Positions 11,853 to 23,948 of a stretch of DNA of 46,627 bases are shown piece after piece. Each line of letters starts with the position of its first letter. Position 1 is the first letter of the stretch. Both the position numbers and the translations under genes were made by a program. Where the stretch lies: NCBI GenBank assembly GCA_947626265.1, contig CANQRM010000005.1:1-46627 (forward strand), read 5' to 3'. Below the pieces are notes generated by a model that saw only the letters and a list, made by a program, of their open reading frames with translations, made no database searches and was not told the DNA's origin. The DNA comes from an uncultured Oscillospiraceae bacterium (GTDB lineage: Bacteria; Bacillota; Clostridia; Oscillospirales; Oscillospiraceae).

Positions 11853-12152
11853 TCAAAAGCTGTCCGCGAAATCCAGCGCGGCGGAGATGTCTTCCTCGCT
11901 GTCCCGTTCTATCGCGGGTCCGGGAGCGGGGGCGGGCTGGGAGCGCAGACCGCGCTCCACAGCCTTTTCCACTGCCCGAAGAAGGGCAGCCTCCTTTTCC
12001 TGCCGGTCAAAGTATTCATTGACCGCCGCCGCGATCAGCTTGCCGTAGGAGTGGAACTGCCGCTTGTCCATCTGCCGCAGCCGTTCCCATGCCCGCCGCT
12101 CGTCCGCGTTGTCCAGGTCCAGCCGGAGCGTGGCGGCAAAGATGTGTTTCAT
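11853..12152 (-). CDS. ParR-like partner of the ParM actin
   Basis: The 99-residue protein begins MKHIFAATLRLDLDNADERRAWERL and continues with a helical region (YGKLIAAAVNEYF), as expected for a small ribbon-helix-helix adaptor that links an actin-like filament to centromere repeats. The start overlaps the parM stop by four bases (ATGA). The position immediately after a ParM gene is the strongest argument. No clear centromere iterons were seen next to it. Confidence 0.7.
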   Translation of the reverse strand: MKHIFAATLRLDLDNADERRAWERLRQMDKRQFHSYGKLIAAAVNEYFDRQEKEAALLRAVEKAVERGLRSQPAPAPGPAIERDSEEDISAALDFADSF

Positions 12153-13075
12153 ACCACGCCTTCCCGCTTTTGCCGTTTCTGGGCTGCAAGGAACTCATAG
12201 CCCTTGGCGGTGGCGCAGATGTCGTCTATGATGAGCACCCGGTCCGGGTCATACCGGCCAAAGTGCTTTATCATGCAGCCTCCGCCGCCTACCACGAACA
12301 GGCGCATCAGCTCCGGGTCATATTCATGCTCCCGCAGATGGCGGAAGATGCCGGACACATAGGCCGACGCCGCCTCCCGGATGGCCGTGAGATACCGCTC
12401 GCTTATATCTGCCGTACCAGTACGGATGACGCGCTCAATGACAGTTTCACCCACCGACGCGCCGAACTGCCGCAGCAGGCTCTCCCGCACGGCGAGCATA
12501 CACTGATTCGTTCCATACTTCTCGGTGAAGCACAGCTTTTGTACGGGCCGGCGCTCATTGATATACATGACGTTCATGGTGCCGTTTCCGATGTCGCAGA
12601 GCATATTGGTCCCGGAAAACTCCCGGAGCCGGTCTGCCACGGCGGAAAAGCCCTGGGGAAACACGTCAGCGCCGGTGAACTCCACATGGTAGTCAACGCC
12701 CCGGAAGGTGAAGTCCACGCTGTCGTTTTGGAGCAGATACGCCTTGAACCGCTCCTTCTGATCGCTTACCCAGGTGAGGGGCAGGCCTGCCGCCAGATGT
12801 ACACGGGCTGAGGTCATATCCCGCATGTTCAGTTCCCGCGCTATGGCGGCCAAGGTCAGCACATAGTAGTCCAGATCGCCCATCTTGTCGGCGGCGAACT
12901 CCTTGTGTTCCTCTCCGATGAGGTAATAGCGCCCGTTCCAGACGAGCAGACTGCTCTTGAAAGTGGGTTCCGTGTCATATTCGGTCACGCCGGTCTTAAA
13001 GCAACAATGGGCGGTCTTGATATTCCCATAGCCGTGGTCTATGCCGATGATGATGGGTGTATTGATAAAACTCAT
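12149..13075 (-). CDS. parM: ParM/StbA-family plasmid segregation actin
   Basis: The 308-residue product has the actin-type ATPase signature: phosphate-1 loop GIDHGYGNIKTA near the N-terminus, phosphate-2 LCDIGNGTMNVMYI in the middle and the adenosine motif VVGGGGCMI near the C-terminus. Such proteins polymerize to push apart plasmid copies, or the circular form of integrative elements. The ATG at 13075 has AGAAAGGAAAC upstream. It overlaps parR. Presence next to a large serine recombinase suggests an integrative element with a plasmid-like phase. Confidence 0.88.
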   Translation of the reverse strand: MSFINTPIIIGIDHGYGNIKTAHCCFKTGVTEYDTEPTFKSSLLVWNGRYYLIGEEHKEFAADKMGDLDYYVLTLAAIARELNMRDMTSARVHLAAGLPLTWVSDQKERFKAYLLQNDSVDFTFRGVDYHVEFTGADVFPQGFSAVADRLREFSGTNMLCDIGNGTMNVMYINERRPVQKLCFTEKYGTNQCMLAVRESLLRQFGASVGETVIERVIRTGTADISERYLTAIREAASAYVSGIFRHLREHEYDPELMRLFVVGGGGCMIKHFGRYDPDRVLIIDDICATAKGYEFLAAQKRQKREGVV

Positions 13076-13118
13076 ATTGTTTCCTTTCTGCCGCGGTGCG
13101 GCGGGTAAAATGGGCAGC

Positions 13119-13149
13119 AAAAAGCGGCCCGCGATCTCTCACGGGCCGC
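13119..13149 (-). terminator. Rho-independent terminator after fic
   Basis: On the minus strand GCGGCCCG (13149-13142) pairs with CGGGCCGC (13131-13124) and is followed by TTTTTGC. It separates the recombinase-fic transcript from the parM-parR pair. Confidence 0.8.
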
Positions 13150-13179
13150 CGCTGCGGTGTCTATGATTTGTTGGGGCTG

Positions 13180-13962
13180 TTATTGGCTGGCCTTGCCGGG
13201 AAGCTGGATCTTGAACATCCTGCAATAATCCTTTTGCGCCTCCAGTTCACACTCTGCGATCAAACGGACAAACGCCTCGTCGGAGGGGTTCTCGCTCCTT
13301 TGTGCAAGCTGCAGAGCGGCGATATAATCATGCCGGAGAATGGGCGGGATGGAGACCACACAATAGCCTTGCCGGATCAGGAGCAGATTCATCAGCAGCC
13401 GTGCCGTCCGCCCGTTGCCATCCTGAAATGGGTGGATGTCAACGAGCCGCCGATGGGCATAGGCGGCATATTCCACGGGATGAAGAGCAGCCTGTTTCTG
13501 CTTCAAATCCTGTATCAGTCCGGCCATTTGGACCGGTACGTCCGCGGCAGTCGGCGGCACATACTCCGTGCCGGAAATGAACACCTGCCCTTTGCGGTAC
13601 TGTCCGGCTTCCTCGGCGTCTATGCCGCTGTAGAACAGAAAGTGCAGCCGTTTTATAACATCCTCCGTAAGCTGAAAATCCTTGCTTCGGGCCAGCGAGA
13701 CCATGTGATCATACGCTCTCCCGTGGCCCGCCGCCTCGTAGCAGTCGCGCAGAGGCTTTCCGCCTACGGTAATGCCGTCCTCCAGAAGCACTTTCGTCTC
13801 AGAGAGAGTGAGGGAGTTTCCCTCCAGGGCGTTGGAACTGTACGTCGTTCCTATCTTATAGTAGGCGTCCAGATGCTTGATCTCTGCCTCAGAAAGCGGG
13901 CGGTGTTCCCGGATATAAGCGGCATTTCGGTCGATCCGATCCAGCAATTCACGATTCGTCAT
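13180..13962 (-). CDS. Fic-family AMP transferase
   Basis: The 260-residue protein carries the complete Fic motif HPFQDGNGRTAR (177-188), so it should be catalytically competent; most Fic enzymes transfer AMP to hydroxyl groups of target proteins. An N-terminal inhibitory helix motif fits Ser43-xxx-Glu47-Gly48 (SNALEGN), the class with self-inhibition in the same chain. The start overlaps the recombinase stop (ATGA), with AGGAGG nine bases upstream, so it is co-translated with the recombinase. No separate antitoxin is visible. Roles in element maintenance or host modulation are inferences. Confidence 0.92.
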   Translation of the reverse strand: MTNRELLDRIDRNAAYIREHRPLSEAEIKHLDAYYKIGTTYSSNALEGNSLTLSETKVLLEDGITVGGKPLRDCYEAAGHGRAYDHMVSLARSKDFQLTEDVIKRLHFLFYSGIDAEEAGQYRKGQVFISGTEYVPPTAADVPVQMAGLIQDLKQKQAALHPVEYAAYAHRRLVDIHPFQDGNGRTARLLMNLLLIRQGYCVVSIPPILRHDYIAALQLAQRSENPSDEAFVRLIAECELEAQKDYCRMFKIQLPGKASQ

Positions 13963-15755
13963 ACTGCCGCAGCCTCCTGTCTCTGCTTTTTCCGCTGGGT
14001 ACAGCGGCGGGATTTCTCCCGGTTATATGCCCTGCGCTGCCTGTCCTTTTCCATCCTCTCCAGCTCCTCCGCCGTAGGTTCGGGCTGGGGAATGTCGAAC
14101 TTGCCAATGAACTTCAGGTAAATGTCCACTTCCTGGACCCGCTCCCCGGTGGAGCGGTCCGGCGCGTGGACGACGATCTTGTCCACGAACTCGTAGATCA
14201 TGGGCGTCGTCAGTTCGGTGAAGTCCGTGTACTTCCGCGCCAGCGCCAAAAACTGCTCCGCCCGGTCGGTGTCGCTGTCATAGACGGCCAGTTTCTTTTC
14301 CGTTTCCTCAATGGACGCCTCCAGCTCCGCCTGCTCCCGTTCATAATCGGCGGACAGCATCTCATATCGCTTCTCAGGCATCTTTCCGGTGGCGTATGCC
14401 TCATACAGCTTCTTGATGAGGCTGTCCAATTCGGCGCAGCGCCGCTTGGCCTGGGACACCTGCCGCTTCAGGTCACGGGCTGCCTCCTTCTGCCGTATCT
14501 CGGAGGCCTCCCGCACCTGGCGGGTGAACGCTTCCTGGTCAGAGAGGGCATAGGCGCTCGCCTCGCGGATGGCGTCCAGCACCAGCGCCCGGAGCGCACG
14601 GGTCGTGATATAGTGGCTGGAACATTTTCTTTCCGTGTGGGTGATGGTCCGGGAATAGGTAGCGCAGTCGTAGTGGTCATAAGGGTAGAGGCCCGTAACC
14701 GGGTCCAGTCCGCGCTTTTCCCTGTCCGCCCGTGAGCGGTTCCGATGGTTGAACATCTTCCCGCCGCACTCCGCGCAGTATACAAGACCGGTCAAAGGGT
14801 TAGCCGCGTCCACATTATCTGTGCGCTTCACTGTTCTGCGTATCTGTTGGGCCAGCTTCCAGGTCTCCGGGTCCACGATGGCCTCATGCGTGTCCTCAAA
14901 GACCATCCATTCCTCCGGCGGGCGCTTTCGCGCGTGCTTGTCCTTGTAGGATTCCTTATAGGAACGGAAGTTGACCGTGTGGCCCATATACTCCGGCTTG
15001 GCGATGATCTCTGCGACCGTGTTGTTTGCCCAGTCATAGGGACGGGCAGCGTCCACATTCTTCTGATGCGTACCGCTGCCATGCCTTGCCAGATAGTAGG
15101 AGGGCCGCTCCACCTTGTCATCCCGGAGGATGCGGGCGATCTCGCCCGGTCCCCGCCCCTCAATGCTCAAACGAAAGATGCGCCGGACGACAGCCGCCGC
15201 TTCCTCATCGACGAGCCAGTGGTGTTTGTCCTCGGGGTCCTTGCGGTAGCCGTACAGCGCGTTGGCGGTGTTGGGTTTTCCGGCCCTGCCCCGTATCTGA
15301 TACGCGGCGACCTGTTTCCGACTGCAATCCCGCAGATACCACTCGTTCATGATGTTGAGGAACGGGGTGAACTCGCCGCTGGCCTTGTCCGCGCTGTCCA
15401 CGCCATTGGCAACCGCGATGAAACGGACGCCACGCTCCCGGAACAGCACCTCCGTATAAAAGCCGGTCTGCAAATAGTCACGGCCTATGCGGGACATGTC
15501 CTTTGCCAGCACCGTGCCCACTTTCCCGGCGTCGATGTCCGCCAGCAGCCGTTTCCAGCTGGGGCGGTCAAAGGTGCCGCCGGAGTAGCCGTCGTCCGTG
15601 TAATGGACGCAGTTGGTGAAACCGTGCTGGGCGGCGTAGTCCTCCAGCATCTGCTTTTGTCCTATGATGGAGTTGCTGTCGCCCAACAGCTCATCGTCAC
15701 GGGACAGCCGCTCATATAGGGCGGTGATGGTTTGGTCCGTCTGCCTGCTGTTCAT
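13959..15755 (-). CDS. Large serine recombinase (TnpX-like)
   Basis: The 598-residue protein has an N-terminal resolvase domain with nucleophile Ser18 (YERLSRDDE) and AKDMSRIGRDYLQTGFY. A recombinase domain follows (ANALYGYRKDPEDKHHW), then a zinc ribbon (CAECGGKMF, with a later Cys) and a C-terminal coiled coil with DUF4368-like end (VHAPDRSTGERVQEVDIYLKF). Such enzymes excise and integrate clostridial transposons such as Tn4451. The ATG at 15755 overlaps the tnpW stop and has AAAGGAG upstream. The full length and intact serine suggest activity. The attachment sites could not be located by eye. Confidence 0.95.
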   Translation of the reverse strand: MNSRQTDQTITALYERLSRDDELLGDSNSIIGQKQMLEDYAAQHGFTNCVHYTDDGYSGGTFDRPSWKRLLADIDAGKVGTVLAKDMSRIGRDYLQTGFYTEVLFRERGVRFIAVANGVDSADKASGEFTPFLNIMNEWYLRDCSRKQVAAYQIRGRAGKPNTANALYGYRKDPEDKHHWLVDEEAAAVVRRIFRLSIEGRGPGEIARILRDDKVERPSYYLARHGSGTHQKNVDAARPYDWANNTVAEIIAKPEYMGHTVNFRSYKESYKDKHARKRPPEEWMVFEDTHEAIVDPETWKLAQQIRRTVKRTDNVDAANPLTGLVYCAECGGKMFNHRNRSRADREKRGLDPVTGLYPYDHYDCATYSRTITHTERKCSSHYITTRALRALVLDAIREASAYALSDQEAFTRQVREASEIRQKEAARDLKRQVSQAKRRCAELDSLIKKLYEAYATGKMPEKRYEMLSADYEREQAELEASIEETEKKLAVYDSDTDRAEQFLALARKYTDFTELTTPMIYEFVDKIVVHAPDRSTGERVQEVDIYLKFIGKFDIPQPEPTAEELERMEKDRQRRAYNREKSRRCTQRKKQRQEAAAV

Positions 15756-18957: not shown

Positions 18958-19329
18958 TCAGTCGTAGACCAGTTCCTGAAGGACGATCTCCTCCGCGCGG
19001 TCCTTGATGCTGTTCATTCTGCGGACCCATTCCATCTGGTCTGCCGCTTTGAGCTGCTCTGTGACGCCCTCCTGTTTGGCCATGACGGGGATCAGGACCT
19101 CCAGCCGTTCGCGGCAGGCGGCGTCGATGTCCGCGACGTGCTTGGCAAGGGTCTCGTTGGTAAGCATGATGGTAAACAGCACTTTGCGGTGTTCCTTTAG
19201 GTAGCGGTGGCGCATGCGTCCATATTTGCCTACATGATAGTCAGTGGTGTCTGACAGGACCAAGTCGGGGATACGGACATCGCCCTCCCAATGGTAGGTG
19301 ACACCCATACGTTCAAGTAATGATTCCAT
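18958..19329 (-). CDS. tnpV: TnpV-family transposon protein
   Basis: The 123-residue protein matches TnpV of clostridial mobilizable transposons: DVRIPDLVL, YGRMRHRYLKEHRKVLFTIML, then EGVTEQLKAADQMEWVRRMN and an acidic end (AEEIVLQELVYD). Its biochemical function is unknown. AAAGGAGCC precedes the ATG at 19329. With tnpW and the TnpX-like recombinase it shows that a Tn4451/Tn1549-like element contributed to this region. It is the last mobile gene before the chromosomal section. Confidence 0.88.
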   Translation of the reverse strand: MESLLERMGVTYHWEGDVRIPDLVLSDTTDYHVGKYGRMRHRYLKEHRKVLFTIMLTNETLAKHVADIDAACRERLEVLIPVMAKQEGVTEQLKAADQMEWVRRMNSIKDRAEEIVLQELVYD

Positions 19330-19586: not shown

Positions 19587-20753
19587 TCATAACTCCTTTT
19601 CCGTTTCCAGCCGCGGCGTCATAGGAACATAAGCGAAAAGAAGCGCGCCCAGCAGAAAAAGGACCCGCCTCAGCCCCAGCCGGACGGCCAGTGCGCCGGT
19701 CAGCGGGAACAGGACGATCATGCAGGCGGAAAAACACATGCTGCTCACGGAGATGAGGGTCGCCCGTCGGTCGGATGGGATGCGGCGGTTCAGCGCCGCC
19801 GAGTGGAGCGGGCCCAGCAGAGCATTGGCAAAGCTGGCCAGGCCGAAGCCCGCCACGGATTCCCAGACAGGGCCGGCGGCCATGAGCGCCAATCCCACAG
19901 CCAGAGCGGCGCCCTCAACGTATGCGGCATGTTTTCCGAGCCTCCCGGCCGCCCACCGGCTCAAGAGAGCGCCCACGCTGGCGGCAAGGCCCATGCACAG
20001 AAGTATCATGCTCACGCCCAGCGTGTCGAAGCCCCGGTCTTGATAGAGCCGCTGGGCGTAGAAAAAGGCCGTGGTGTAGCCGGCGAACACCACACCGCAG
20101 CGCAGCAGCATGCGCCGCAGAGGTCTGTCCTTCAGCAGGGCGAAGCTGGCGGCAAAGTGGACCCGGACTGTGACACGATCGCCGGCAGCCGGGCTGTGAG
20201 GTTCCGTCAGGAAAACGCCCACGAAGAAGGCGGCGGCCTCTATGCCCGCGCTGACAAGATAGCACAGCGCGAAAGACCGTCTTGCCAGTATCCCGCCCGC
20301 CAGCACGCCGACGGCCTGGGCGATCTCCGCCGCGAGACCCATGCGGCCGGCGGCGTGAAAGTACTGCCCTTCCCGGCCCAGACGCAGAAAGCTGTCATAT
20401 AAAAGCGCCTCGTCCGAGCCGGACAGCAGGTTATAGCTCCACGCGTTGAGCACGAACGCCGCGGCCAGGAGCCCCATGCTGTCGGCGTATATGGTCACCA
20501 GCGTGGAGACAACGGCCAGGACCCGGCTGGCCAGCATGGCGCTTTTCCGGCCGAACAGGTCCGCCAGCGCCCCGGATGGCACTTCGGCCGCCAGTCCCGC
20601 CCCGTGAAATATACCCTCCAAAAGCCCGATCTGCCACAGCGTCAATCCTTTCCGGAGCAGATACATCACCCATATCCCATCCCCGAGAGCAAGGGAGGAA
20701 AGAAAGCGAAAAAGATAGCTCACCGCTACATTGCGGTGCAGTTTTTTGTCCAT
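19587..20753 (-). CDS. MFS transporter behind a leader-peptide attenuator
   Basis: The 388-residue protein has about twelve hydrophobic segments and the MFS loop signature GALADLFGRKSAM between helices 2 and 3. A drug or metabolite exporter is likely, but the substrate cannot be read from the sequence. The ATG at 20753 has AGGAG eight bases upstream. That ribosome site and start codon can pair with a segment upstream (20822-20835), and a terminator plus a 32-codon leader peptide lie in the transcript leader. Such control is typical of genes protecting against ribosome-targeting antibiotics. The gene belongs to the GC-rich section. Confidence 0.88.
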   Translation of the reverse strand: MDKKLHRNVAVSYLFRFLSSLALGDGIWVMYLLRKGLTLWQIGLLEGIFHGAGLAAEVPSGALADLFGRKSAMLASRVLAVVSTLVTIYADSMGLLAAAFVLNAWSYNLLSGSDEALLYDSFLRLGREGQYFHAAGRMGLAAEIAQAVGVLAGGILARRSFALCYLVSAGIEAAAFFVGVFLTEPHSPAAGDRVTVRVHFAASFALLKDRPLRRMLLRCGVVFAGYTTAFFYAQRLYQDRGFDTLGVSMILLCMGLAASVGALLSRWAAGRLGKHAAYVEGAALAVGLALMAAGPVWESVAGFGLASFANALLGPLHSAALNRRIPSDRRATLISVSSMCFSACMIVLFPLTGALAVRLGLRRVLFLLGALLFAYVPMTPRLETEKEL

Positions 20754-20783
20754 TGCAGTGACTCCTGATCTGGATTTGGGCAC

Positions 20784-20820
20784 AAAAAAGACCCCTTCCA
20801 CCGCCGGTGGAACGAGTCTT
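20784..20820 (-). terminator. Intrinsic terminator in the MFS leader (attenuator)
   Basis: On the minus strand AAGACTCGTTCCACC pairs with GGTGGAAGGGGTCTT with two internal mismatches, followed by TTTTTTG. It stands between the leader peptide and the MFS gene, so transcription of the exporter requires readthrough. Confidence 0.85.
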
Positions 20821-20851
20821 TGGGATCACTGCAATAGAGAACGGTCTGCCC

Positions 20852-20950
20852 TTATGACCTGAAAATGGGCGCAGTGATCCCCTGACGGCGCCGATCATAG
20901 GCGATCAGGCCGCTGCTGGTGAAGATGATGTACCCATAGCCAGGCATCAT
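20852..20950 (-). CDS. Leader peptide of the MFS attenuator
   Basis: A 32-codon frame starts MMPGYGYIIFTSSGLIAYD and ends RRRQGITAPIFRS. It has an excellent ribosome site (AAAGGAGGG, five bases before the ATG) and a promoter just upstream. Codons near the 3' end include GGGATCACTGC (20881-20871), exactly complementary to GCAGTGATCCC in the following leader (20832-20822). A ribosome stalled or slowed there would change the downstream fold. The role is inferred from this architecture. Confidence 0.75.
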   Translation of the reverse strand: MMPGYGYIIFTSSGLIAYDRRRQGITAPIFRS

Positions 20951-20980
20951 GCGCCCTCCTTTCCATTCATAAGTACAGCC

Positions 20981-21010
20981 AGTATAACTTGGATATCCCA
21001 CTCCTGTCAA
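20981..21010 (-). promoter_or_regulatory. Promoter of the leader peptide and MFS gene
   Basis: On the minus strand TTGACA (21010-21005) is followed after 18 bases by TATACT (20986-20981), or after 17 by TTATAC. The leader peptide start lies about 30 bases downstream. Confidence 0.8.
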
Positions 21011-21037: not shown

Positions 21038-21066
21038 TTGACGGGAACGACTGCGGCCGGTAAAAT
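21038..21066 (+). promoter_or_regulatory. Promoter of the P-loop protein gene
   Basis: TTGACG (21038-21043) and TAAAAT (21061-21066) are separated by 17 bases. It is arranged back to back with the minus-strand promoter; the two -35 elements are 27 bases apart. Confidence 0.7.
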
Positions 21067-21097
21067 GGGCCCAAGCAAATTCAGGGGAGGGCTTCCT

Positions 21098-21763
21098 GTG
21101 CAGATAGAGAACAACATTATAAGGTACTATCTTAGAAACTGCTATTTCATCAACGGCACCGCCTATGCGGGGAAGTCCACCATGTGCGCCATGCTGGCCC
21201 AGCGCTACGGCATGGTCCATTGCGGGGAGAATTACAACCTGGACACCATACTGTCCATCGCCGAGCCGGACCGGCAGCCCAATCTCTGCTATCGCCACAC
21301 CATGCCCTCCTGGCAGCATTTCGTGAGCCGGACGCCGGAGGAATACGAGGCCTGGGTAGACGGAAACCAGCGGGAGCTTGCGGGATTCGAGGTCGCGGAG
21401 CTCATACGCCTGTCCGGCGGCAGAAAGGTCATCGTGGATACAAATATCCCCTGCGACGTGCTGTGGCAGATATCGGACTATGACCATGTGGCCGTCATGC
21501 TGTCCCCGCAGACTCTGTCCGTGGACCGCTTCTTTGACCGGGACGACCCGGACAAGCAATTCCTTCTCTCCGTGATACGCTCCTGCCCCGACCCGGAGGC
21601 CGCGTCGGAAAACTTCAAGGCCTGCATTGCCCGGGTCAACAGCCCGGAACGGTACGCCGCCCTTCAAAACAGCGGCTTCTTCACCATTGTCCGCCCCGCC
21701 GGCGACGGGGACACAAGAGAGGAAGTCCTCTCCGCCTTGGCAGAACACTTCAAACTAAAATAA
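21098..21763 (+). CDS. P-loop NTPase/kinase-like protein, function unknown
   Basis: The 221-residue protein has a Walker A motif GTAYAGKST at 20-28, preceded by the beta strand CYFIN. A later strand VIVDTN (about 118-123) could supply the Walker B or base region. The size and single compact domain suggest a small-molecule or nucleotide kinase, or a phosphotransferase. GTG at 21098 is the likely start, with GGGGAGGG seven bases upstream. It is divergent from the MFS gene with adjoining promoters, so a shared role in resistance or detoxification is possible but unproven. Confidence 0.75.
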   Translation: MQIENNIIRYYLRNCYFINGTAYAGKSTMCAMLAQRYGMVHCGENYNLDTILSIAEPDRQPNLCYRHTMPSWQHFVSRTPEEYEAWVDGNQRELAGFEVAELIRLSGGRKVIVDTNIPCDVLWQISDYDHVAVMLSPQTLSVDRFFDRDDPDKQFLLSVIRSCPDPEAASENFKACIARVNSPERYAALQNSGFFTIVRPAGDGDTREEVLSALAEHFKLK

Positions 21764-22520: not shown

Positions 22521-23216
22521 TCACATGGTCTCCACCACGCTGGCCACGCCGGGCACCTGACCCACCTCCGCCGTCACGGCGTCGGCCTTATTGTGCTGGT
22601 CCAGCTGCAGGGTGAACACCACGCTGGAGCTCTTCTTTTCCCCGTCCTGGGACCGGGTGACCACCATATTCCGTACCCGCACGCCCTTCCGGGCGAACAG
22701 GGCCAGCACATTCTCCAGAGCGTCGCGGCCCTCATATTCCAGCAGCAGCTTCAATTCTTCCGAGTTTTCCAGCATCCAGTGCTCCAGCCTGGAGAATATG
22801 GACTCCGCCGCCAGCACCAGGATGGTCCCGGCCACGCCCGCCTCATAGTAGCCCGCGCCCAGGCACAGGCCGATGACCGCCGCCACCCAGAGGCCCGCCG
22901 CGGTGGTGAGGCCCCGTATCCGCTGCCGGCGGGTGACCATGATGCAGCCCGCGCCTATAAAGCCCACGCCGGCCACCACCTGGGCGCCCATGCGGGTGAT
23001 GTCGGTGTTGAGCTGCATGACCCGGTAAAGATACTCCCCCGTGAGCATGGTCACCGCGGCACCAAGGCAGATGAGGATGTGGGTGCGGAAGCCCGCCGCC
23101 CGGCGCTTATACTCCCGCTCCAGGCCGATGCAGCCGCCGCAGAGCACCGCCAGCACCAGCCGCAGGGTCACGGAGGCCATGGTGACCTCCCGCAGGCCGT
23201 CAAATATATGCAGCAT
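22521..23216 (-). CDS. MgtC/SapB-family membrane protein (second copy)
   Basis: The 231-residue product has about five hydrophobic helices with the family core GGCIGLEREYKRRAAGFRTH and GAGCIMV. A cytoplasmic C-terminal domain of about 80 residues ends in a regulatory-type beta-alpha fold. Family members are linked to magnesium limitation and membrane potential; the exact activity is unsettled. It lies 15 bases downstream of a paralogue and shares the opening MLH(I/A)xDGLRE. The start has GAGGAGGGG upstream. Confidence 0.9.
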   Translation of the reverse strand: MLHIFDGLREVTMASVTLRLVLAVLCGGCIGLEREYKRRAAGFRTHILICLGAAVTMLTGEYLYRVMQLNTDITRMGAQVVAGVGFIGAGCIMVTRRQRIRGLTTAAGLWVAAVIGLCLGAGYYEAGVAGTILVLAAESIFSRLEHWMLENSEELKLLLEYEGRDALENVLALFARKGVRVRNMVVTRSQDGEKKSSSVVFTLQLDQHNKADAVTAEVGQVPGVASVVETM

Positions 23217-23231
23217 GTCTCTCCCCCCTCC

Positions 23232-23948
23232 TCATATCTCCACGGCGGACACGCTCTCCAGCTCGGAGAGGGCCGTCATGATCTGGGTGTGGTGCTGTCC
23301 CCGGTTGAGGCGCAGGTACACGATGGCGTTGGGATTGCCCCCGTTCCGGCCCCGGTCGATATCCACCGCGTGGATGTGCACGCCCTGGGCCCGGATGCAG
23401 GCCAGCACGTCGCTGAAGTTCTCCAGGCTCTGGACCTCCACGTAGAGGTTCAGGTTCCGCCCCCGCTCCATGAGCATCGTCTCCACCCGCCGCAGCAGGT
23501 GCATGCTGAGGAAGATGAGCGCAAACGCCACGATCACGCACTCATAAAACCCCGCCCCCACGGCCAGGCCCACGCAGGCCGTGGCCCAAAGGCCCGCCGC
23601 CGTGGTCAGGCCCTTCACCTCCTGGTGGCCGGTGACGAGGATGACCCCCGCGCCCAGAAAGCCGATGCCATTGACCACCTTGGAGCCGATGCGGGTGATG
23701 TCGGTGCGAAAGCCCACGGCCGCCGCCTCCGCCGCCCACTCGTGGGTGGCGAGATGATAGAGATACTGGCCCAGCAGGATGGTCAATGCCGAGCCCAGGC
23801 ACACCAGCATATAGGTGCGGAACCCCGCCGCCCGGTGGCGCCGGGCCCGCTCGATGCCGATGAGCCCGCCGCACATCATGGCGAGCAGCATCCGCAGGAG
23901 CATCGACGCAACGGTCAGCTCCCGCAGGCCGTCCAGCGCGTGGAGCAT
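23232..23948 (-). CDS. MgtC/SapB-family membrane protein (first copy)
   Basis: The 238-residue paralogue of the next gene contains GGLIGIERARRHRAAGFRTY and GFLGAGVILVTGHQEVKGLTTAA. Hydrophobic helices are followed by a soluble domain (SLENFSDVLACIRAQGVHIH). Divergence from the second copy is substantial, so this is an old duplication and not an assembly artefact. The two are presumably co-transcribed, and may form hetero-oligomers. Confidence 0.9.
   Translation of the reverse strand: MLHALDGLRELTVASMLLRMLLAMMCGGLIGIERARRHRAAGFRTYMLVCLGSALTILLGQYLYHLATHEWAAEAAAVGFRTDITRIGSKVVNGIGFLGAGVILVTGHQEVKGLTTAAGLWATACVGLAVGAGFYECVIVAFALIFLSMHLLRRVETMLMERGRNLNLYVEVQSLENFSDVLACIRAQGVHIHAVDIDRGRNGGNPNAIVYLRLNRGQHHTQIMTALSELESVSAVEI

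Follow-up and report, generated by a model that had tools for sequence, protein, structure and literature searches.

An MFS transporter gene of an uncultured Oscillospiraceae bacterium is likely to be controlled by a four-segment RNA switch gated by translation of a leader peptide, and the transporter, whose direction of transport we infer, is probably an exporter. The unit lies on the minus strand of the stretch of DNA analysed here (46,627 nt, hereafter the window), where an earlier note made from the sequence alone had described a promoter, a ribosome site, a 32-codon leader, a terminator-like hairpin and the MFS gene, each of which was found where that note had placed it (Table 1). The leader ribosome site is strong (AGGAGGGCGC, 20960-20951), an alternative leader ATG is possible at 20947 and the MFS ATG occupies 20753-20751. 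Two complementarities had also been claimed, one between the leader end and the intergenic region and one between the same intergenic segment and the MFS start, and both are perfect: GGGATCACTGC (20881-20871) matches GCAGTGATCCC (20832-20822) over 11 nt (pairing 2:3), which 1 of 5000 dinucleotide shuffles reached, and ATTGCAGTGA (20835-20826) matches TCACTGCAAT (20761-20752) over 10 nt (pairing 3:4), reached in 4 of 5000. A further arm had been missed, the pairing (1:2) of GGGCGC, part of the leader ribosome site, with GCGCCC (20872-20867) in the codons at and beyond the end of GGGATCACTGC. Against chance alone this 6-nt match is weak (242 of 5000 shuffles reach it), and the relatives lend it support. 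Pairings 1:2 and 3:4 are compatible, 2:3 excludes both, and since the missed arm is the leader's own ribosome site the whole becomes a four-segment switch of the ErmC/vmlR kind. The RNA from 20975 to 20740 folds 5.7 sd below its own shuffles, with 0 of 200 as low.

Table 1. Features of the leader and transporter unit, in positions of the window
Feature	Coordinates	Strand	Evidence
Sigma-70-type promoter	20981..21010	-	TTGACA 21010-21005, TATACT 20986-20981; 11 of 12 consensus positions
Segment 1, leader Shine-Dalgarno region GGAAAGGAGGGCGC	20951..20964	-	pairs with segment 2 in the fold; relatives
Leader peptide ORF, 32 codons and stop, MMPGYGYIIFTSSGLIAYDRRRQGITAPIFRS	20852..20950	-	in-frame dN/dS
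Segment 2 GGGATCACTGCGCCC, within the last leader codons	20867..20881	-	complementarity; relatives
Segment 3 ATTGCAGTGATCCC	20822..20835	-	complementarity; masked folding; relatives
Intrinsic-terminator-like hairpin and U-run	about 20784..20821	-	within the 3:4 loop; formed in every modelled state
Segment 4, MFS ribosome site AGGAG (20766-20762) and start region TCACTGCAATG	20751..20766	-	complementarity; folding; relatives
MFS transporter gene, 388 aa	19587..20753	-	Pfam superfamily MFS_1, E 1.3e-21

In the mechanism we propose, a leader free of ribosomes would pair segment 1 with 2 and segment 3 with 4, keeping the MFS gene off; a ribosome at the start codon or first codons would cover segment 1 and leave segment 2 free, 2:3 would form, segment 4 would open and the gene would be on; and a ribosome in the last third of the leader would cover segment 2, restoring 3:4 and the off state. 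The switching itself was followed in silico only, by masked folding in which a ribosome was represented by a 30-nt footprint barred from pairing at successive leader positions. In the free window RNA (transcript 20974-20700) 1:2 and 3:4 both stand at 0.99, with the P site on codons 1-7 of this transcript 2:3 stands at 0.87-1.00, over codons 9-21 (every second one) 1:2 returns (lowest 0.81), over codons 23-31 (every second one) 3:4 is at 0.99-1.00, and on codons 32-33 2:3 forms again in the model. The earlier claim that the competing segments respond to ribosome position is borne out by this folding, which gives the off state for the free RNA and the on state with a ribosome at the start codon.

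A contig scan returned five relatives with an MFS 80-98% identical to that of the window, and the window type is present in 6 of 35 genus genomes, the window's included. Homologous genes lacking the complementary segments had been named as evidence against the switch; all five relatives checked keep the 11-bp pairing 2:3 (10-11 of 11 pairs) together with the promoter hexamers, leader, segments and hairpin, both hexamers being invariant across the six aligned sequences. Pairing 1:2 retains 5-6 of 6 pairs in window-type sequences, and 3:4 is perfect in two of the six (the window and L004) with 7-8 of 10 pairs in the other four. Identity to the window reaches 91-100% in segment 3 and 94-100% in the leader end, as compared with 74-95% in the intervening spacer, 81-98% in MFS codons 2-20 and 86-98% in leader codons 1-22. 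Just after the terminator, at 20784-20771, GTGCCC (GCGCCC in four relatives) resembles the end of segment 2; no role was found for it.

The earlier note had also suggested looking for conserved leaders upstream of homologues, and similar leaders with other peptides were found, at 10 loci of the same genus and at all 41 loci of another genus (g66). A single locus from another family of the order, L015, has an MFS 49% identical to the window's and a leader ending in ...GITAPFFSL. The L016 type, found in 10 of 35 genus genomes, precedes a distant MFS (33-35% identical to the window's, and split over two frames in G396); its leaders have 21-28 residues and end in RISAPFFR or close variants, and its 3:4 hairpin is followed by AUUUUU and then directly by the MFS AUG. 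In g66 a related MFS, about 31% identical to the window's, occurs in 41 of 59 genomes, and a leader fitting the motif M-[YHF]-W-I-T-x-N-x-[QH]-L-M-x-G (typical form) is present at 41 of 41 loci, the same 41 from which the motif was drawn; the leader stop lies 62-78 nt before the MFS start in 40 of them and 109 nt before it in L131.

The extent of modelled switching depends on the transcript ends chosen. A second folding run, with 24 nt at the 5' end and the 3' end moved closer, applied strict and lenient marks of a switch with the ribosome on the start codon; the strict mark was reached by 5 of 6 window-type sequences (the window included), 1 of 1 L015, 10 of 10 L016-type and 2 of 41 g66 sequences, and in shuffles by 1/30 (window), 0/50 (L016) and 0/205 (g66). 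The lenient mark was reached by 15 of 41 g66 leaders (21 of 41 with a queued ribosome) and by 3/30, 0/50 and 3/205 shuffles of the window, L016 and g66 types. The window switches fully at the start codon only in this run. Comparing a ribosome at codon 1 with one near the leader end, 2:3 is higher in 6/6 window-type, 1/1 L015, 10/10 L016-type and 32/41 g66 sequences, and 3:4 is lower in 6/6, 1/1, 10/10 and 25/41. In a third run, with 35 nt upstream and thus part of the -10 box included, the window falls short of the strict mark (2:3 at 5.1 pairs and 3:4 still at 10.5 with the ribosome at the start), which was reached by 4/6 window-type, 0/1 L015, 9/10 L016-type and 3/41 g66 sequences and by 0/400 window shuffles. 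A ribosome stalled at codons 11-15 with another at the start raises 2:3 on average in the window, L016 and g66 types; in L015 2:3 forms in this queued-ribosome folding even without a ribosome, and the window alone gives mixed results by footprint (24-nt run). In the window group the opening energy of the MFS ribosome site differs between states by small, irregular amounts, which weighs against a large effect at equilibrium, and in the L016 type late codons open the site as much as early ones. The models predict, for the window and L016 types and more weakly for g66, mutually exclusive pairings that would hide or free the MFS ribosome site.

The 41 aligned g66 leaders (alignment A4) allowed the pairings to be compared with 500 shuffles and with slid registers. 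For 2:3, 85.2% of cells pair and 49 are changed on both sides against a shuffled mean of 18.3 (0/500), slid registers giving at most 22, and an RNAalifold consensus of the alignment contains the 2:3 helix alone. For 3:4, 76.4% of cells pair, with 48 doubly changed against 28.8 shuffled and at most 37 when slid; for 1:2 the figures are 66.3% and 24 against 11.7, slid registers reaching 23, and a slide of +2 scores higher (0.189 vs 0.169), segment 1 being shifted by indels. If one counts instead the pairs that show at least one double change, a measure that relatedness inflates less than the others, none of the three beats its shuffles in g66: 7 vs 5.6 for 2:3 (67/500 reach it), 6 vs 6.6 for 3:4 (469/500) and 5 vs 4.4 for 1:2 (233/500). 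Further pair types stand clearly above shuffles for 2:3 alone (15/500). In an alignment-free comparison, cognate g66 segments pair better than swapped ones both for 1:2 (-18.1 vs -14.4 kcal/mol, 0/5000 permutations) and for 2:3 (-24.1 vs -18.9 kcal/mol, 0/5000), and when partners are drawn from other motif types, the cognate 1:2 pairing is the better one in 37 of 41 sequences and in 12 of 14 types (p 0.0009). On these comparisons pairing 2:3 is well supported in g66, and 1:2 and 3:4 moderately so.

The leader peptide proposed in the earlier note carries amino-acid selection: across the six window-type sequences codons 2-22 have a dN/dS of 0.23 when read in frame and of 0.92 and 1.54 when the frame is shifted, ratios which, like those below, are descriptive because the sequence pairs are not independent, and the window leader looks translated. 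Among 39 g66 leaders of 27-28 codons, dN/dS is 0.18 over codons 2-14 (shifted frames 1.75 and 0.81), 0.62 over codons 15-20 and 0.94 over codons 21-26, which suggests that the leader start is selected as peptide and its end, it seems, kept as RNA. In two g66 loci, L048 and L131, the leader stops after 18 codons, before segment 2, and the segment-2 nucleotides are nonetheless kept. A leader ending I-[ST]-A-P-[FI]-F was considered as an arrest motif and rejected in g66, since codons 21-26 stand at 0.94 and the leaders of L048 and L131 end before it while the nucleotides stay; the ending is also altered in L008 and L020. The leader end of the window group is highly invariant (0.25 in its own frame as against 0.21 and 0.46 in the two others). 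For the L016 type, split by leader length, early codons give 0.75 in one set of five leaders and 0.23 in a second set of four, a leader of odd length being excluded. Amino-acid-starvation attenuation was judged unlikely by eye because no leader inspected repeats one amino acid. At the level of sequence, these comparisons demonstrate the segments, their conservation and the amino-acid selection on the leader.

We infer that antibiotics induce the window switch, and the natural inducer would probably be an inhibitor, exported by the pump, that slows ribosomes at or soon after initiation. A translation-attenuation switch might instead sense starvation or a general loss of translation, irrespective of any particular drug or peptide: in the model the switch should respond to whatever holds a ribosome at the start codon, and expression of the closely analogous vmlR goes up in stationary phase and when ribosome assembly is defective, according to excerpts of PMC9226507. 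We regard this as unlikely, since a sensor of initiation only needs no peptide selection and the window-type and g66 leaders are selected as amino-acid sequences, which is less evident in part of the L016 type (0.75).

The earlier note had put the drug-stalled ribosome on the last leader codons, freeing segment 3 to control termination and translation together. Pairings 2:3 and 3:4 are real and exclusive, as this requires, and 2:3 does form in the model once the ribosome sits at codons 32-33, the final codon and the stop; on codons 23-31, however, the model gives 3:4 and the off state, the hairpin is unaffected in all states, and peptide selection in g66 falls on codons 2-14 (0.18), not 21-26 (0.94). 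With a ribosome on the late codons segment 2 is covered and the MFS start stays hidden, so that a last-codon stall should repress the gene and not induce it, which makes this version quite unlikely. The folding with and without a ribosome that the note had proposed as a check did change the fold; it left 3:4 in place on codons 23-31 and the terminator-like hairpin as it was. Of the joint control, the translational part is supported by the modelled exchange of 3:4 for 2:3, and the termination part is not, since the window hairpin has a probability of 0.96-0.97 in every modelled state; control of this terminator by the segment pairings was rejected on the same ground, the masked folding yielding no antiterminator exclusive with the terminator, as a transcription attenuator would need. 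Transcripts would have to pass this terminator in every modelled state, which counts against the gated switch that we favour. In the L016 and g66 types a U-run follows the 3:4 hairpin just before the MFS ATG, termination control by 3:4 is plausible in these sister groups, and there a single element may both terminate transcription and hide the ribosome site. Constitutive low expression, with terminator and sequestered start limiting a costly pump and the leader incidental, agrees with the window terminator being predicted to form in all states and is very unlikely, as a fixed repressing hairpin needs neither the amino-acid selection seen in the leader nor the maintained alternative pairing 2:3.

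The logic of such a switch is known from ErmC, vmlR and mef(E), by analogy with which this leader family would be a fresh variant; a text search of the open-licence literature found no published description of a leader-switch family before this MFS clade. In the ermC translational attenuator 1:2 and 3:4 stand against 2:3 with a stalled ribosome, and the window has the same arrangement, differing in that its segment 1 is the leader's own ribosome site, its segment 2 lies in the last codons and its target is a transporter instead of a methylase. The leader-peptide attenuators treated in excerpts of a review (PMC5418344), the stalled-ribosome attenuator of ermC among them, mostly concern known resistance genes in well-studied bacteria; they include fexA, like the window a translation attenuator before a drug exporter, which differs as a Staphylococcus chloramphenicol/florfenicol exporter and is likened here by description, not by sequence. 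The closest known logic, by analogy, is that of vmlR in B. subtilis, for which excerpts of PMC9226507 describe a uORF within an anti-antiterminator, an alternative antiterminator, a terminator and a hairpin partly hiding the target ribosome site, stalling at uORF initiation freeing the antiterminator and the ribosome site and inducing the gene; it differs in its three-codon uORF and ABC-F target, whereas the leaders here have at least 18 codons with conserved peptide parts and precede an MFS gene. mef(E)/mel shares a leader-peptide attenuator before an MFS efflux gene and an alternative pairing that frees expression, and differs in its leader MTASMRLR and in distant repeats that disrupt the terminator, hiding of the MFS start not being described in the excerpts of PMC4335068. 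In the E. coli toiL uORF, as excerpted from PMC12121999, stalling likewise opens a hidden ribosome site and several drug classes act at different positions; the target there is a toxin-antitoxin system and termination is Rho-dependent. The window places a known attenuator logic in uncultured Clostridia before an unnamed transporter clade, with a partly peptide-selected leader and a maintained RNA switch, and if the switch works such leaders would be ready-made reporters naming pump substrates and revealing new stalling peptides.

A leader-peptide profile built from 15 leaders and run on 391 class genomes gave at least 12 strong matches (E 3.7e-7 or better; the next among the matches listed 0.0017), seven of them profile members and the other five from G135, G058, G085, G311 and G349. 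All 12 genomes carry the MFS, and the leader is directly upstream in 11; in G349 (L142 1501-1700) an M-x-W leader and attenuator lie about 1.7 kb from it with an opposite-strand transposase-like ORF between. An MFS profile marked 42 places in 38 of the 391 genomes, 41 of which were inspected (the fragment G223 was left out, and L118 fell outside the automated parse). By inspection 22 of these 41 loci have a recognisable leader, of which one is window-type, 12 are M-x-W leaders (one of them displaced) and nine belong to f25; in the remaining 19 no leader, or only unlike candidates, could be recognised. The f25-type leaders share an EYLAxAHAIT core and a long terminator-like hairpin before related MFS genes (L049, L051, L053, L056, L058, L059, L060, L061 and L063); in L061 the frame appears shifted with the nucleotides kept. 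In five f25 loci the strong pre-MFS hairpin stays folded whether or not a ribosome occupies the start codon, leaving no obvious switch and a lead only.

The window leader peptide as query matched, among the 391 genomes, the window and one other (L009, E 0.0098), which was rejected as its site is not before an MFS gene. A pattern search with the segment-2 motif, one mismatch allowed, matched 8 of 391 genomes (none with the reversed control), three of the matches being MFS leaders (the window, L031 and L032). Set aside were the remaining five: by inspection L027 and L033 have neither a leader nor an MFS gene nearby, the L026 match falls where a transposase-like ORF ends, that in L030 belongs to a short ORF with no gene close by, and in L028 (around 1500, minus strand) a similar motif precedes an ABC-F-like gene and shares a frame with no start codon.

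Taken together, the leader types allow the tentative reading that one exporter clade across Clostridia uses one ribosome-gated switch with exchanged nascent-peptide sensors, the leaders making up a natural collection of arrest peptides that answer to gut antibiotics. The candidate sensors, read from the sequences, would be YGYxIFTSSGLIxYD in the window, M-x-W-x-T-x-N-x-[QH]-L-M-x-G in g66 and relatives and MRW... in the L016 type, possibly with the f25 core as a further one; if this reading is true, some of these gut antibiotics are perhaps not yet known.

The MFS protein itself reached no cut-off of a named drug-resistance family among the NCBIfam models: HP1165 scored 39 bits (cut-off 700), TetA(P) 24.9 (cut-off 750), and multidrug and efflux models matched weakly, far under their cut-offs. 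Solved structures gave no match at E 0.001, a plasmid search gave no DNA match and 13 Lactococcus records at about 27% protein identity, a phage search gave one partial match, and Rfam at gathering score found only two tRNAs in the window, the leader RNA matching no family. A freshly moved promoter-leader-MFS cassette is unsupported, the upstream neighbours being common to the window, L004, L005 and L008; those of L006 and L007 differ. A TnpV transposon protein gene (18958-19329) lies near the MFS gene end, and adjoining genes for a serine recombinase, a Fic-family protein and an actin-like protein (12149-15755) likely form a mobile element. The opposite-strand neighbour at 21038-21763 has no Pfam or NCBIfam match at E 0.001, and its product carries what we take to be a P-loop-like motif. 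Beyond it, at 22521-23948, are tandem MgtC-like genes, the first identified by Pfam and the second by its likeness to the first alone. Elsewhere in the window's own genome (contig C3, L003) an MFS paralogue of 28% identity is closely preceded by a five-codon ORF (MALLA) and a terminator-like hairpin, which may be a further attenuator.
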